From Leptolyngbyaceae cyanobacterium C42_A2020_001 (GTDB lineage Bacteria > Cyanobacteriota > Cyanobacteriia > Leptolyngbyales > Leptolyngbyaceae): DNA of 32,388 bases. The translations under genes were made by a program, and so were the position numbers. The stretch spans positions 1 to 32,388 of the forward strand of contig JACYLN010000084.1 of the NCBI GenBank assembly GCA_015272515.1, read 5' to 3'. Below are positions 4,407 to 28,998 of the stretch, piece by piece; within the stretch, counting starts at the first letter, position 1, and each line of letters opens with the position of its first letter. The notes beneath the pieces were generated by a model. That model was not told the DNA's origin. It saw nothing but the letters and a program-made list of their open reading frames with translations, and did not search any database.

Positions 4407-5057
4407 ATGAATAAAGCAATTAGCTTCAGTGCAATAACTGCAACAGTAGTCATTGCGGGTACGACGTTAGGAAGCGCACCTGCTCAAGCTCTCAGTATCG
4501 AGCCGGGCAGCAGCTTTCAAATCAATAGTCTCTCTAACATCAAAATCACTACGACTGGTATTGATTTTGGTAATAATGGTGCAGCAGGAGCACCTGTCAC
4601 ACTGTCAGATGTTTTACTCGCCGATGGAGTGACTTCAGACCCTGGTTGGTCAACAAACCGAGGGGCTAGTGGAGTAGCAGCAGATATCCTGTTCAACATT
4701 CCCCAAACTAGTTTCTTAACATTTACCTTACTTGATCCAGCAGGTAGTCCCTTGACCTTTGATTTCCTTGCTCCGTTTGGCACTACTGTCTCTACAGCTC
4801 CGGGTAGCAATGATACATTTACTTTGTCATTTGCCACCAAAATCAGAAATGCCTTAACAGGCACAATTGTAGGAGATGGTTCGCTAACTGCTCAGGTGAA
4901 AGATGGCTTCGTCGTTGGCAACAATCAAGGCGTTTCTTCTTTCTCAGTTTCTGTCACAGCAGTGCCAACTCCAGCCCTTTTACCTGGCTTAATTGGTCTT
5001 GGTGTTGGGATGCTGCGGAAGCGGAAAGCTGAGGCAACGGCTAAGGCTCAGGCTTAA
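4407..5057 (+). CDS. Secreted PTPA-CTERM (exosortase-sorted) protein
   Basis: A 216-residue exported protein with a tripartite sorting tail. The N-terminus is a Sec signal peptide: Lys3, a hydrophobic stretch to about residue 20, and a likely cleavage after APAQA near residue 28. The middle is a low-charge, Ser/Thr/Gly-rich beta-type domain with no recognised enzyme motif. The C-terminus has PTPA at 187-190, a hydrophobic segment at about 191-203 and an RKRK cluster at 204-207. That is the cyanobacterial PTPA variant of PEP-CTERM. Such tails are thought to be recognised and cleaved by a membrane exosortase, and an exosortase gene lies about 1 kb downstream on the same strand. The protein is therefore a likely dedicated substrate that ends up at the surface or in the extracellular polysaccharide. 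The function of the middle domain is unknown. Confidence 0.88.
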   Translation: MNKAISFSAITATVVIAGTTLGSAPAQALSIEPGSSFQINSLSNIKITTTGIDFGNNGAAGAPVTLSDVLLADGVTSDPGWSTNRGASGVAADILFNIPQTSFLTFTLLDPAGSPLTFDFLAPFGTTVSTAPGSNDTFTLSFATKIRNALTGTIVGDGSLTAQVKDGFVVGNNQGVSSFSVSVTAVPTPALLPGLIGLGVGMLRKRKAEATAKAQA

Positions 5058-7068: not shown

Positions 7069-7533
7069 CTACTCTCCCATCGCCTGTAAAAATAGCGATC
7101 GCGTCCGGGGTCCATCCAGTTCAAACAACAGAACAGATTGATAGGTTCCTAATGCCAATTTGCCGTCTACGACTGGGATAACTTCACTGGTACTGAGGGT
7201 GATTGCCATCAGATGGGAGTGAGCATTCATCGGTTCATCGGGAGGAATGTTGGGGCGCAGGTGCAGGTCATTGTGATGATAGCGATGGCGCACTGTGCCC
7301 AGGGTTAGTCCTCCTTCAGGAGCCAATTGCTGCAAATAAGCTTTGACATCTTCAAACAATCTGGGTTCGTGCTCGTTGATGGCAAGAGCGGTAGTGGTAT
7401 GACGCGAGAACACTAACACTTGACCGTTTTGAATCGCTGTTGAGATGAGAAAGGTTTGAATCTGCGGCGTAATGTCGTAAATCTGAATGCCAGATTCGGT
7501 GGGAATTTGGATTACTTGGTGAATGATGGGCAT
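7069..7533 (-). CDS. yjbQ: YjbQ family (UPF0047) protein
   Basis: A 154-residue protein of the small conserved YjbQ family. Members have been linked to secondary thiamine phosphate synthase activity, though the physiological role is unsettled. Diagnostic segments are SRHTTTALAINE near the N-terminus, then HHNDLHLRPN, NAHSHLMA, and LGTYQSVLLFELDGPRTR near the C-terminus. The histidines form the conserved polar pocket. The frame stays open upstream to 7632, but the ATG at 7533 gives the family N-terminus (MPIIHQVIQIPT). The upstream extension would translate a heptanucleotide repeat, so the shorter start is chosen. The gene is tail-to-tail with the exosortase gene, 40 bp apart. Confidence 0.88.
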   Translation of the reverse strand: MPIIHQVIQIPTESGIQIYDITPQIQTFLISTAIQNGQVLVFSRHTTTALAINEHEPRLFEDVKAYLQQLAPEGGLTLGTVRHRYHHNDLHLRPNIPPDEPMNAHSHLMAITLSTSEVIPVVDGKLALGTYQSVLLFELDGPRTRSLFLQAMGE

Positions 7534-7540
7534 AACTGAA

Positions 7541-7570
7541 TGGGAAATCGGGAATGGAAATTGGGAATGG
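7541..7570. repeat. Degenerate heptanucleotide repeat (STRR-like) upstream of yjbQ
   Basis: Four consecutive 7-mers, TGGGAAA, TCGGGAA, TGGAAAT and TGGGAAT, run into a HIP1-like GGCGATCGC. They lie just upstream of the yjbQ start codon. The same consensus, on the opposite strand, occurs inside the STAND ATPase gene at 28103-28130, so a dispersed repeat family is present. Confidence 0.65.
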
Positions 7571-7698
7571 CGATCGCAAACAAATGATGAATCACAATAA
7601 CCCGTTACCATTGACGCAAAAAAATGGGACACCTGAACAGTGCCCCACCCATAACCACAATCAAAGGAAACTCAACTAAACCACGTCTAACTCGCAAA

Positions 7699-14805: not shown

Positions 14806-15066
14806 ATGCTACATCAACTGACCCAAAACAAGTTCGCTCGACTCATGCTCACAGCAGGACTCTGCTTGACTACCGTTTTCGCGAACCCGATCAATTGCAA
14901 CGCCGCCAAAAAGAGTGAGGCACCGTCTTTAGAAGGTGGTCAACTTGCGCTCAAGATCAAAAGATCTGATGTTTTAGAAGGTGATCAACCTGCGCTCAAG
15001 CTCAAAAGATCTGATGTTTTAGAAGATGGTCAGCCTGCGCTCAAGCTCAAAAGAGCCGATGTGTGA
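14806..15066 (+). CDS. Small secreted protein with three 15-residue Lys-Arg repeats
   Basis: An 86-residue protein preceded by TAGGAGAT about 6 nt before the ATG. Residues 1-33 look like a Sec signal peptide (KFARLMLTAGLCLTTVFA core), with cleavage near CNA/AKK. After an eight-residue linker the mature part consists of three tandem 15-residue units at 42-56, 57-71 and 72-86. The consensus is LE(G/D)(G/D)Q(L/P)ALK(I/L)KR(S/A)DV. The ORF stops exactly at the end of the third unit. Every unit carries a KxKR basic site. I recognise no family. A surface or structural repeat, or a precursor of repeated peptides, are both possible and neither is shown. Confidence 0.6.
   Translation: MLHQLTQNKFARLMLTAGLCLTTVFANPINCNAAKKSEAPSLEGGQLALKIKRSDVLEGDQPALKLKRSDVLEDGQPALKLKRADV
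14929..15063 (+). repeat. 45-bp tandem coding repeat, three copies
   Basis: Three in-frame 45-bp units at 14929-14973, 14974-15018 and 15019-15063 encode the 15-residue repeats. Copies 2 and 3 are nearly identical in DNA (for example GCGCTCAAGCTCAAAAGA in both), so the array expanded recently and could still change in number. Confidence 0.85.
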
Positions 15067-15349: not shown

Positions 15350-15547
15350 ATGTTAAAGTCAAATCGTTTTTCAATGTTTGCAGTCCTCGGTGCAACATCC
15401 GCTATTAGTTTAGTGAGCGCGATCGCGGCAGCATCTCCAAATTTCGTGATGTCTGATCGCATTCAACCACCTAATTCTAAAGTTGCTCAATTGAATGAGC
15501 CTCAAGTTTCAGCTGGGTGTTCAACCCCCGCCTGCGAGAAACCTTAG
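15350..15547 (+). CDS. Small exported protein, probably C-terminally truncated
   Basis: A 65-residue ORF with GTAAGGAA about 8 nt before the ATG. Residues 1-28 form a signal peptide (MLKSNRFSMFAVLGATSAIS core, likely cut after IAAAS). Only about 37 residues remain, ending AGCSTPACEKP. The stop lies within a 65-bp tandem duplication. A familiar-looking domain start, GQWKGNDGGTYYL, appears just downstream beyond several stop codons in the same frame. The simplest view is that this is the secretion-signal end of a formerly longer secreted protein. The alternative is a genuine short exported peptide with two cysteines. The 283-bp gap upstream (15067-15349) holds a TCTCCTCAA/TTGAGAGGA foldback and no gene. 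Confidence 0.45.
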   Translation: MLKSNRFSMFAVLGATSAISLVSAIAAASPNFVMSDRIQPPNSKVAQLNEPQVSAGCSTPACEKP

Positions 15548-15610
15548 TTACTCAATTGAATGAGCCTTAAGTTTTAGCTAGGTGTTCAACTTCCGCCTGC
15601 GAGAAACCTT
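15481..15610 (+). repeat. 65-bp tandem duplication with transition-only divergence
   Basis: Copy 1 (15481-15545) and copy 2 (15546-15610) are contiguous and differ at six or so positions. Every difference is C to T or G to A in copy 2. Because 65 is not a multiple of three, the duplication shifts frame and brings stop codons into the exported-protein gene. Confidence 0.85.
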
Positions 15611-15751
15611 ACCGGCCAGTGGAAAGGCAACGATGGTGGAACCTATTACCTACCCAAAATTGCTAATAAGGTTTTCCCTAACTACTGCCGGGTTAATAGG
15701 CGGCATATCTTCCGTGTACTACCAGGACAACGAGTTTGCAAGAGCTTCTGA
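15586..15751 (+). pseudogene. Remnant of a secreted-protein domain gene
   Basis: Downstream of the duplication one frame reads GVQLPPARN then LTGQWKGNDGGTYYL then PKIANKVF, ending at the TGA at 15749-15751. The G-W-NDGGTYYLRQ(I/V)GN pattern is one I associate from memory with a small secreted domain found in bacteria. Here the expected continuation after GN is lost and no start codon or signal peptide is in frame without stops. I read it as a decayed piece of the gene whose 5' end survives at 15350-15547. This rests on one short motif and is tentative. Confidence 0.4.
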
Positions 15752-24945: not shown

Positions 24946-27900
24946 TTAATTTTCCACGGCTCCCAATGCTCTCAGAGAAACTTTTTGAGCGTCTGACAAG
25001 CCGATCGCGCCAGTAATGTTCATCCCTTCGTAGGGGCGATCGGTTTTCAACGTCATCAGGCATTCACCGGTGCCAATACTCCAACGCTTGATTGTCTCAT
25101 CCTGGCTGCTGCTGGTTAGAGTGCCGTCTGGATTAAACGCAACCGATGTAACGACATTTGTATGTCCATAAAATACCTGCAAACAGTCTCCCGTAGCGAC
25201 CTGCCACAGCCGCACGGTTTGGTCGGTACTGGTGCTGGCTAACCATTGTCCATCGGCACTAAACGCGATCGCCCAAATGCGGCTGGTGTGTCCCTCCAGT
25301 GTCCGATGGCAGTTTCCTGTCTTAACATCCCAGAGCTTAATCGTGTGGTCACCGCTACCGCTAGCAAGGGTACATCCATCGGGGCTAAAGGCAACCGTCC
25401 AAACCCAATTTGTATGCCCTTCTAACGTTTGCAAGCATTCTCCAGTCCCACCATCCCAAAGTTTCACGGTTTGGTCATAGCTGCCGCTGGCAAGCAGTAA
25501 CTCAGTTTTAGAGGGTTGCACAGGGCTGAAGGCAACCGAACAGACCCAACTGGTATGCCCTCGCAGCGTTTGAGTACAGCGCCGAGTGCTGACCTGCCAC
25601 AATTTCACGGTTTGATCATCACTGCTGCTGGCAAGCCATTGTCCATCGGCACTGAACGCCACGGACCAGACGCGACTGGTGTGTTCCCGTAATGTCGCCA
25701 GACATTGTCCCTCTCCATGCCAAAGTTTGATCGTGCAATCGGTGCTACCACTGGCGAAAAGGGATTCAGTTGGGCTGGTGGCGATCGCGCAAACAGAATT
25801 CGTGTGCCCTCGTAACGTCTGCTCACACTGTCCAGTTGCTAGATTCCACATTCGCACACAATGATCATCATGACTGCTCACAAGCTGGTGAGTTAGAGGC
25901 AGATGAGCGATCGCCCAAACCCGATTGGTAAAACCCTTCAATGTACGATAACATCGACCATTCTCACCCTCCCACAGCTTAATTGTATGATCACCACTGC
26001 CGCTGGCAACTAGCGAGGTTTGGGGATGAGCCGCCACAGAACGCACCCAACTGGTATGCCCCGATAACACTTGCCGACAGGTGCCCGTTTGCCGATCCCA
26101 CAGGCGAATGGTGTGATCTTCACTGCCACTAATAATCGTTTGCCCATCCGCACTAAACGCAATGGCTCGGACCCAACTTGCGTGTCCCTGCATCACATGC
26201 AAACAATCCCCCGTCTTCACATCCCATAGCCTGACCGTGCGATCGCTGCTGCCGCTGGCAAGAAACCGCCCATTGGGACTAAAAGCAATTGTCCAGACGC
26301 GATCGCTGTGACCACTCAAGGTTCGGTAACACCGCCCCGTTCTTAAATCCCAAAACTTGATCAGATGGTCATCTCCGGCACTGGCAAGTAGCGATCGCGA
26401 TTCTGGATTACCCGAAGTTGGGCTAAACGCAACTGAGCGCACCCAATTTTGATGACCTTTCAGCGTTGTCAAACAGCGCCCAGTATGGACATTCCACAGT
26501 TTCACTGTCCAATCTTCGCTGCTGCTTGCTAGCAATTGCCCATCCGGACTGAACGCCACGCACCAGATCGGGCTGGAGTGCCCTTCCAGCGTTTTGTAAC
26601 AGTGTCCAGTTTCCACCTCCCATAATTTGATAGTCCGGTCTTCACTGCCGCTTGCCAGTAGCCTGCCATCTGGGCTAAACGCGATCGACCAGACCCAGCC
26701 GCCATGCTTTCGCCCAATCCATACGGCTTCCCCATCTGCCACTCGCCACAATCGCACTTCACTATTTAAATCACCGCTTGCCAGATAATTTCCGGTTGGG
26801 CTGAACGCGATCGCCAACGGCATTGCCAGGGTTTCTGTAAACGTTGATGCGGCAAACTGTGACTGGGTAAAATTCGTTTGGTGCAGGGTCGCAGCCTGGA
26901 GACAGGCTTGCCAAATTGGCAGGTAGGAAAAGTCGTAGCCCTGCAATTGCACACCCAATTGGTGCAATAAGTTAATTAGATTGCCTCCAGCATAACCAGC
27001 CGACTGCGGACACTGACGCAAATCAGAAAGAATCTCTTTAAGTTGCCGTTCTACGACCTCAATCGATTGAAAATAACTCAATAGCCGCTTTGCTAAAGGT
27101 GATAATAAAACTCGAATCTGACTCTCTTGCACATAATCTTCAGCCTGAGCTTGAATTAATGCATGGGTACAGAAAAGAGTAGAGGAGTAATGTGAATTTT
27201 TCGATTCTTCATTCTCCATTTTCCACTTCGTAATTTCCTCAAAGGCGAGATCGAGGAACTGTTCTGTGACATACTCCATTACAACGGGTTGTAAGGTAAA
27301 CCGTCCGTCTCGCTTTTCGATCAGCGATCGCTGATCGAGTGAGAGTAAGGCTTCCAGGAGTGCCACCTGAGACGGAGTAGGCGTTAATGCGGTACGTAAC
27401 TGATTGACTGAAATCCACTCGCGTCCAATGGCTAGCCAGTAGATAATGTGTTGCTCCAGAGTAGTCAAGCGTTGAAATTGCTCATCCAGTAGGGTGCGGA
27501 TATCACCAAACGCGATCGCACCTTGTTGTAAAAAGTGGGTCAGTTGCCCGCCGAATAAATCACGCACAACGGTGGAAACAATCTTGATTGCCAGTGGGTT
27601 ACCAGAGTATTGCGCTGCCAAAGTGTGCCAATCATCCTGTGCATCTGTATAGCAACCATTCGTTTCACAAATTTTTCTCACTTCTGCCACATTCAGCCCC
27701 GACAATCGCAGCGTCCGAATTGGTGATGTTTCCCCTTCTAGCATCACCAGGTTTTTTGGCTGTTCTCGACTGGTTAACAACATGTGGCTAATGTGCTGCT
27801 CTATTCCAATTCGGCGCAATAGTTCTCCATACGCCTCATATCCGTCGCGGTATTGCCCTGCGCGATCGCTCAAAACCGCATCAAAATTATCCAACACTAA

Positions 27901-28701
27901 TAAACAGCGGTAGTTCCGCAAATGGTGCATCAATTGGTCAATCTGGTCATTCAAATGGGTTATATGAGGAGTCTGCTGTTGCCCCGAAAGGATTTGAATC
28001 CAGTGATTTAAAACTGTTGCGATCTCAGGTGCGTTACGAAGGGACTGCCAAATAACAAATTTAAAAGACTGAGAACTGAAGACTGAGGACTGAGCTTCTG
28101 TTCCATTCCCCATTTCCCATTCCCCATTCCCAAACCTCTGATCCCTAACCCCAATTTCCTGCGCCAGCTTAGTCACGAGTGTGGTTTTACCCATGCCACC
28201 CATGCCCAATACTGTGATCAGGCGACATCCATCTTGCAAAATCCACTGTTTTAGCAGCGTTAATTCTTGCGTCCGACCATAAAACACCGAAACATCGATC
28301 GCTTCTCCCCAATGCTGTTTGGGCTGTTTCACAGCAGGTTGAGAACTGACCTGGGAAGTAGGAGCGATCGCGACAACAGATTTAGCTTCAGTTTGTTGGG
28401 CAACCTCAGAAACGCACCCCTCTAATGTCAAAGTGTGAGATTTCAAAGTGTGAGACGATTGACGACGCAGGACGGATTGTAAATTCTTCTTGCTAACCTG
28501 TTCTCCAACCGCTTGGCTAATTTGTTGCCAGAGTTGAGATCCAACATCACGAGTGTGTCCCGTGTCGTAACCGATTTGCTCGGCAATTTCTGGGTACGTC
28601 CATCCACACCAGGAGTAACGAAAAACCTGCTCCTGAATGTCTTTAAGCTTTTGCCCTTCAAGTAAGGCATCTACTAAAGCTAGGGCTTGCTCAGCATCCA
28701 T
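24946..28701 (-). CDS. STAND ATPase: N-terminal HTH-like, NB-ARC, 14 WD40 repeats
   Basis: A 1251-residue STAND protein, numbered from ATG 28701. That start fits the family N-terminus and has GAGAG about 8 nt upstream; the ATG at 28716 adds five residues. About 1-80 is a helical DNA-binding-like module (QALALVDALL, GWTYPEIAEQIGYDTGHTRD). NB-ARC has Walker A GMGGMGKTT (166-174), Walker B LLVLDNFD (267-274) and LLTSREQPKNL, then a winged-helix region. A linker with weak pentapeptide-like repeats leads to 14 WD40 repeats, enough for two seven-bladed propellers. The tail GMNITGAIGLSDAQKV is a conserved ending. The family assembles on recognising a ligand, often in defence or signalling. Heptanucleotide arrays have been absorbed in frame near residues 186-211 and 497-506. 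Confidence 0.85.
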   Translation of the reverse strand: MDAEQALALVDALLEGQKLKDIQEQVFRYSWCGWTYPEIAEQIGYDTGHTRDVGSQLWQQISQAVGEQVSKKNLQSVLRRQSSHTLKSHTLTLEGCVSEVAQQTEAKSVVAIAPTSQVSSQPAVKQPKQHWGEAIDVSVFYGRTQELTLLKQWILQDGCRLITVLGMGGMGKTTLVTKLAQEIGVRDQRFGNGEWEMGNGTEAQSSVFSSQSFKFVIWQSLRNAPEIATVLNHWIQILSGQQQTPHITHLNDQIDQLMHHLRNYRCLLVLDNFDAVLSDRAGQYRDGYEAYGELLRRIGIEQHISHMLLTSREQPKNLVMLEGETSPIRTLRLSGLNVAEVRKICETNGCYTDAQDDWHTLAAQYSGNPLAIKIVSTVVRDLFGGQLTHFLQQGAIAFGDIRTLLDEQFQRLTTLEQHIIYWLAIGREWISVNQLRTALTPTPSQVALLEALLSLDQRSLIEKRDGRFTLQPVVMEYVTEQFLDLAFEEITKWKMENEESKNSHYSSTLFCTHALIQAQAEDYVQESQIRVLLSPLAKRLLSYFQSIEVVERQLKEILSDLRQCPQSAGYAGGNLINLLHQLGVQLQGYDFSYLPIWQACLQAATLHQTNFTQSQFAASTFTETLAMPLAIAFSPTGNYLASGDLNSEVRLWRVADGEAVWIGRKHGGWVWSIAFSPDGRLLASGSEDRTIKLWEVETGHCYKTLEGHSSPIWCVAFSPDGQLLASSSEDWTVKLWNVHTGRCLTTLKGHQNWVRSVAFSPTSGNPESRSLLASAGDDHLIKFWDLRTGRCYRTLSGHSDRVWTIAFSPNGRFLASGSSDRTVRLWDVKTGDCLHVMQGHASWVRAIAFSADGQTIISGSEDHTIRLWDRQTGTCRQVLSGHTSWVRSVAAHPQTSLVASGSGDHTIKLWEGENGRCYRTLKGFTNRVWAIAHLPLTHQLVSSHDDHCVRMWNLATGQCEQTLRGHTNSVCAIATSPTESLFASGSTDCTIKLWHGEGQCLATLREHTSRVWSVAFSADGQWLASSSDDQTVKLWQVSTRRCTQTLRGHTSWVCSVAFSPVQPSKTELLLASGSYDQTVKLWDGGTGECLQTLEGHTNWVWTVAFSPDGCTLASGSGDHTIKLWDVKTGNCHRTLEGHTSRIWAIAFSADGQWLASTSTDQTVRLWQVATGDCLQVFYGHTNVVTSVAFNPDGTLTSSSQDETIKRWSIGTGECLMTLKTDRPYEGMNITGAIGLSDAQKVSLRALGAVEN
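27200..27227. repeat. Degenerate heptanucleotide array inside the STAND gene (linker region)
   Basis: Four consecutive 7-mers, TTCGATT, CTTCATT, CTCCATT and TTCCACT, lie inside the STAND gene. They encode part of a lysine/glutamate/asparagine-rich stretch (KWKMENEESKN) where related proteins, as I recall them, have a shorter acidic loop. Likely a decayed STRR insertion. Confidence 0.5.
28067..28130. repeat. Two heptanucleotide arrays inside the STAND gene
   Basis: Positions 28067-28094 are four 7-mers (GACTGAG, AACTGAA, GACTGAG, GACTGAG). Positions 28103-28130 are another four (CCATTCC, CCATTTC, CCATTCC, CCATTCC). They are read through in frame and give the low-complexity stretch FGNGEWEMGNGTEAQSSVFS between the Walker A helix and KFVIWQSL. 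The second array has the same consensus as the repeat at 7541-7570. Confidence 0.8.
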
Positions 28702-28998
28702 CGTGAAGACTCTCATGGTTGGTTGTTGTCATTCACTTTCCACGTTTAGAAGGCTGATTTTATGCTTCTAAAACGCTGCCCTTTATGGTCGTTGCCATTT
28801 TTGAGACACTAGTTGCCAGTATCCTTCTCGGAAGAATAGATTACCTGGCTAGTCATGTTCTCAGTTGACTGACCATCGGCATATTCTATGGAGTCTGAGC
28901 CAACTCGTACCGCGCCCAATCGGGTGAAAATCTCCCAGGTTCATATGAAGAATCTTATCCTACGTGATTTTACACCCATGCTTTTTACATCTGCATCG

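Follow-up and report, generated by a model that had tools for sequence, protein, structure and literature searches.

Comparison of homologues shows that arrays of unrelated 7-bp units have landed more than once in the same few places of homologous proteins, and it is this recurrence at fixed protein sites, not any single case, that is of interest. The window, by which we mean the whole 32,388-nucleotide stretch of DNA that was analysed, holds three such arrays within the gene for a STAND-type ATPase. Very probably these are ordinary STRR-type heptads that entered the gene and survived there because the sense strand of each unit lacks stops, the frame stays intact and they lie in a length-tolerant loop.

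STRR heptanucleotide repeats of cyanobacteria were reportedly described by Mazel et al. in 1990. STRR are 7-bp tandem units, dispersed over the genome in several unit families, as is also the case in the window genome. In the accessible text of PMC2670836 STRR heptads are discussed for intergenic places, whereas the arrays in the window are translated inside a domain. The available portion of Rehm et al. 2015 (PMC4692102) deals with GGGAATC and GGGGA(C/T)T repeats of Xanthomonas and Nostoc PCC 7120, whose G-rich unit is nearly equal to GGGAATG and of which four units are commonest; the intragenic share is put at 11% and 7% in two Xanthomonas, and in Nostoc 7120 68% are intergenic. That portion gives shares and says nothing of peptides, protein sites or recurrence. 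The TAACTGA arrays of MacGregor 2015 are likewise heptad arrays but, unlike those of the window, are according to the accessible text (PMC4679880) mainly intergenic and upstream of start codons; the text argues that stops in one orientation govern where the repeat may sit in coding sequence. Rickettsia palindromic elements, in the part of PMC10969869 available, share with the window arrays the placement of repeat DNA in frame within genes, there unrelated conserved ones, in a manner compatible with function; those elements are ~150 bp long, palindromic and encode a conserved peptide, whereas the window arrays are 7-bp tandem repeats of many unit sequences. The sole inverted repeat in 27980-28240 is 18 nt long and 78% complementary, its arms lying almost wholly outside the arrays. 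Heptad repeats in cyanobacteria and their partly intragenic location are therefore published knowledge; a search of the literature, in which few subscription journals were covered, found no description of arrays landing repeatedly at homologous sites in proteins.

Three heptad arrays are translated within a STAND gene

The gene (Table 1; ORFs and genes were called with a simple codon model) encodes an N-terminal region of ~100 aa with no Pfam match, then a linker, an NB-ARC/AAA_16 NTPase, a helical part and WD40 repeats (14 Pfam stretches), such that NB-ARC and AAA_16 make up the first half of the protein and WD40 the second. An NB-ARC domain (PF00931, 29.5 bits against a cut-off of 23.5) joined to a WD40 repeat sensor places the product among STAND proteins. 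Its P-loop-to-Walker B region aligns with plant NLRs (PDB 6j5t, 9fyc) and AfsR (8k60), from which it differs in having WD40 instead of LRR and an enlarged loop after the P-loop helix. Every residue of the P-loop and Walker B that does not vary among 25 aligned homologues is kept, and the strand after the insert begins FKFVIW. PADLOC matched the WD40 region to HEAT-ARM_XIII and gave a weak match to IetA, which is no basis for a defence role. Rfam and tRNA scans of the whole window were empty; viral contigs yielded no relative and one pattern match, and none was found in the phages searched. Synechocystis PCC 6803 carries an NB-ARC-WD40 homologue on a plasmid.

Table 1. Features of the STAND gene (window positions; residues are those of its product)
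Feature	Position	Strand	Basis
CDS, 1256 aa, STAND-type ATPase	24946..28716	-	ORF, translation, Pfam, NLR chains matched in PDB
Walker A segment and helix start, GMGGMGKTTLVTK, residues 171-183	28168..28206	-	codon-level translation
Array 1, (GGGAATG)x4 on sense strand, residues 196-205 GNGEWEMGNG	28103..28131	-	TRF 4.1 copies; lag-7 score 16
Array 2, (CTCAGTC)x4 degenerate, residues 208-217 AQSSVFSSQS	28068..28094	-	TRF 4.0 copies at 28067-28094
Strand and motif behind insert, FKFVIWQSLRNAP, residues 218-230	28027..28065	-	codon-level translation; aligned with plant NLR chains
Array 3, degenerate heptads, residues 498-505	27204..27225	-	TRF 3.1 copies, score 30 (lowest that TRF reported; weak array)

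The initial annotation had placed two in-frame 7-mer arrays side by side, behind the Walker A helix and ahead of the next strand, and TRF and the translation agree; TRF also recovers, weakly, the third, degenerate array that the annotation had noted further along. The annotated residue ranges need adjusting, with the insert ending at about 217 and not at 211 and array 3 corrected to the range in Table 1. On the sense strand the three arrays read GGGAATGGGGAATGGGAAATGGGGAATGG, CTCAGTCCTCAGTCTTCAGTTCTCAGT and TGGAAAATGGAGAATGAAGAAT, all inside the ORF and all with the period of 7 (TRF) that characterises STRR.

We compared lag-7 self-match scores with those of randomised sequences. Array 1 exceeds chance in both controls: its score stands against a best of 12 among 100 copies of the window generated by a first-order Markov model and a best of 10 in 1000 codon shuffles of the gene. 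Caution is due because its peptide is itself repetitive, so that 42 of 1000 synonymous-codon shuffles that hold the protein fixed attain 16 in the loop. Arrays 2 and 3 score 11 and 9 on the same scale and thus, taken alone, are not beyond the Markov control. Support for both comes from the orthologue L051, whose gene has arrays at the two matching places (scores 11 and 13).

The loop insertion was gained on the branch to the window gene and its closest orthologue

The stretch from GK[TS] to WxSL measures 44 residues in the window protein, 70 in L051 and 18 in the next orthologue, L052; therefore, the arrays and their flanks add 26 residues. Among 77 distinct homologue loops the length was 17-18 in 52, 20-23 in 4 and at least 24 in 21, counted over best matches to the window protein, which are not a random sample, and after leaving out three of 82 loci that lacked a motif match (L023, L225, L231). 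A Lysobacter match (L053) consisted of the repeat peptide alone and was excluded from every count. The loop insertion is thus absent from most homologues, and L052 has neither this insertion nor array 3. The counterexample envisaged in the annotation, a homologue with the inserted residues and no heptad DNA, did not appear in 78 homologue loops; the residues are shared solely by L051, and there in part (GNxEW, QSS[VI][FL]SSQS). Of note, the record of L052 contains a frameshift (4770-4848), an error or real, that splits this orthologue between NB-ARC and WD40.

In L051, the closest orthologue (84% identical), the insertion is kept in diverged form. The CTCAGTC array can still be seen in its loop (score 11), and the loop end SSQSFKF is unchanged, yet this loop exceeds that of the window protein by 26 residues, and its middle part differs from the window's. 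We considered whether the extra part is a dispersed element and rejected this, as it has a single copy in the L051 genome (G018) and none in G000.

A tree of 79 homologues, built with the loop removed by a quick method with SH-aLRT support, joins the window protein and L051 as sisters (99*) and places the short-loop L052 next (99*). Three further members of the same group outside these (L219, L054, L055) all have short loops. With sisters that carry the insertion and short loops in the rows around them, the tree places the gain of the insertion on the branch to the window protein and L051.

Comparison of these two insertion-bearing sequences gave dN 0.070, dS 0.703 and dN/dS 0.10 over 1191 codons, with dN/dS 0.103 over the 349 codons of the NB-ARC part and 0.30 in the insert, where the value comes from 32 codons only. 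On these codon alignments the gene is shown to have been under purifying selection since the insertion was gained. Together with the kept motifs, the ratios give what looks like a working gene with a tolerated loop, in agreement with one of the two outcomes the annotation had offered, tolerance of the repeats in a loop. A structure model of the NB-ARC part, built with three sequences, had helix, loop and strand in the expected order, at a pLDDT of 38, too poor for placing the loop on the surface.

Arrays of unrelated units recur at the same protein sites

Among the 21 loops of at least 24 residues, 10 have lag-7 arrays (score 9-39) and 2 have lag-8 arrays (score 15 and 24), while the 56 shorter loops reach a lag-7 score of at most 4. 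The other 9 long loops have no clear array; length may therefore also grow otherwise, or arrays may decay beyond recognition. The units at this loop vary (GGGAATG, CTCAGTC, GAAGGCA, ATTCAAC, AATCCAA, CCCAGTC, CCCCACT and others). Labelling the 13 array-bearing rows of the tree (11 lag-7 and 2 lag-8, with L023, array score 27, added by hand) requires 8 changes, of which at least 7 are forced by starred branches; four of the array-bearing loops belong to one array-rich genome, G007. As read from the tree, this shows that arrays of unrelated units entered this loop behind the Walker A helix in several lineages. The peptides of unrelated arrays have no residues in common, and thus the common factor is the DNA and not the peptide.

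We mapped 31 lag-7 arrays of score at least 11 in the 77 homologues onto the window protein. Eleven fall at residues 72-136, 11 at 188-212 and 7 at 494-508, so that three zones hold 29 of 31, the other two lying at residues 573 and 840; the zones were drawn after the data had been inspected, and residues 640-1250 (the WD40 part) are covered by ~27 of the 77 homologues. The two places named in the initial annotation are two of these zones. At 494-508, other arrays are found in L198, L203, L212 and L237. By the same mapping, the region before NB-ARC and the region at ~494-508 are likewise shown to have taken up unrelated arrays in several lineages. Period-8 arrays were also seen at heptad sites, in L212, L028, L200 and L202.

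Relatives of three enzymes that have arrays in the window genome bear other arrays, at or near matching places. Among 30 ChlD loci, L241, L242, L265 and L269 have arrays near residue 463, and L255 has one near 97, adjoining the array at 92-101 of the window genome; the lag-7 score of the latter is below 11, so that this case rests on a pattern match. In MenD (30 loci), arrays lie at 218-246 in the window genome, L272, L293 and L298. Among 28 loci for homogentisate phytyltransferase (HPT), the window genome, L301 and L315 have arrays at 83-101, and G015 has one at 222. A change of repeat copy number by three heptads in HPT between the window genome and the same-genus genome G002 was considered and is not upheld by the sequences. 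The ChlD array near 463 in L269 (genome G005) is an in-frame array of ~165 bp that mixes several heptad units.

Heptad arrays inside ORFs are ordinary in the window genome

To place the single case, we sampled 800 kb of the window genome, taking two fixed stretches per contig from 20 contigs, irrespective of repeats. The sample holds 12 lag-7 arrays at score at least 13, against 0, 1, 5, 6, 1 and 0 arrays at lags 5, 6, 8, 9, 10 and 11. Ten of the 12 are in called ORFs, two of them sharing one ORF, and the coding share of the sample is 0.87; the view of the initial annotation that repeats of this type are as a rule intergenic does not hold here, and a single in-gene case is ordinary for this genome. 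The in-ORF share is higher than in the accessible text of Rehm et al., a comparison of a small sample obtained with another method and threshold.

The unit of array 1 is dispersed in many copies: three GGRAATG units with up to 3 mismatches gave 125 matches in the window genome, where the reversed pattern gave 2. The same control fails with CTCAGTC (11 matches against 72). Among 100 listed of the 125 matches there are 64 GGGAATG-unit clusters, of which 29 are in ORFs, 8 at an ORF edge and 27 outside; 18 of the 29, again among those listed, lie well inside ORFs of at least 200 residues. Proteins with arrays include ChlD, MenD, HPT, a KAS-type beta-ketoacyl synthase and PBP1C, all above NCBIfam cut-offs. 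The host is cyanobacterial, as expected for STRR, with ChlD, MenD and HPT present and a closest orthologue from Leptolyngbyaceae. In a CobN-type protein of the same genome (L137:6921-11000), three heptad-like, C-rich stretches are read in frame; the match is weak for each of them.

The in-ORF share differs much among relatives, in small samples. In G002, 8 of 10 real heptad clusters are in ORFs (an eleventh cluster, a run of N, was not counted), and in the array-rich G007 the figure is 18 of 83. In G007 lag 7 is prominent, with 91 arrays, and none of lags 5, 6 and 8-11 exceeds 4. Its sampled loci (L349-L368) contain the 83 clusters in 400 kb, mostly outside ORFs, compared with 12 in 800 kb of the window genome.

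A probable reason why the arrays are kept

A heptad array passes through all three frames and can thus be read through only where the sense strand of its unit is stop-free. GGGAATG has no stops on either strand; CTCAGTC is stop-free only in the orientation found here, its reverse strand holding TGA. In G007, an antisense stop is present in 14 of the 18 clusters inside ORFs, a count that follows from their being inside an ORF, and 32 of 65 clusters outside ORFs have stops on both strands, which shows how many arrays could never be absorbed. We propose that heptad arrays would arise widely over the genome and that frame and stops would filter them, with tolerant loops passively retaining the rest. 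Selection would remove arrays that break the protein, so that survivors would mark tolerant sites and could serve as raw material for linkers.

A stronger version of the last step is that heptads are a standing source of linkers in filamentous cyanobacteria, delivering ever-new units into a few fixed places in proteins of several domains (for NB-ARC-WD40 proteins, two linkers and the loop that follows the P-loop helix), with loop length tuning STAND assembly; we regard this version as improbable. That the insert was retained because it changed oligomerisation or partner binding is more doubtful still. Its persistence while dS rose to 0.70, the identical loop end in L051 and the repeated enlargement of the loop across the family are what such retention would produce, but the absence of residues common to unrelated arrays, the still longer loop of L051 and the higher dN/dS of the insert relative to the gene (0.30 over its few codons against 0.10) speak against it.

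Since 7 is not divisible by 3, slippage by one heptad would shift the frame behind the P-loop and could toggle the gene as a phase switch, and some homologues do have long pure loop arrays (L198 has ~seven CCCAGTC units). We think this very unlikely: among 73 Walker A/WxSL pairs from 72 loci, 11 of them array-bearing, none had the two motifs in different frames, the window arrays are short and impure, and arrays also occur in metabolic enzymes, the counter-argument of Rehm et al. in the accessible part of PMC4692102. A function of the nucleic acid, in which a quadruplex formed by the G-rich sense array would retard transcription or translation, merits hardly any credence. Array 1 has, as a sequence pattern, the at least four G-tracts on one strand of the Rehm-type quadruplex heptads (G4), and according to the same partial source quadruplexes form in vitro from oligonucleotides with related heptads; however, the sense strand of L051 lacks the G4 pattern, 11 of 18 interior arrays of the GGGAATG unit are C-rich on the sense strand, and other arrays in that loop are not G-rich. 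Finally, inactivation of the protein by a large insertion adjoining the P-loop, the disabled ATPase of the initial annotation, is scarcely credible with an open 1256-aa frame, conserved P-loop and Walker B residues and low dN/dS, in the gene and in NB-ARC, although both lineages carry the insertion.

If the arrays are indeed ordinary heptads that tolerant places retained, the survivors amount to a natural insertion scan that reveals where proteins accept length, and the refilling of identical places with unrelated units opens the process to study by comparison alone. They would also be a concrete DNA source from which bacterial STAND proteins, and enzymes including ChlD and MenD, obtain loops and linkers of low complexity, and a warning that such loops are not to be taken for conserved functional parts. 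Were loop length also to tune assembly, genome repeats would be linked to the evolution of bacterial NLR-like sensors.

Other repeats in the window

A GGGAATG-like array at 7536-7570 lies at the 5' end of a 187-aa UPF0047 ORF (7069-7632, minus strand), ahead of the domain and probably upstream of the true start of the ORF. A small ORF at 14806-15066 (plus strand) has a signal-peptide-like start and three tandem 15-residue units of the LEGGQPALKLKRSDV type, encoded by a 45-bp repeat in three copies at 14928-15062; its product looks like a precursor of repeated-unit peptides. At 15481-15611, a 65-bp tandem duplication (90%) lies in a small frame that begins at ~15350; at the duplication this frame is interrupted.
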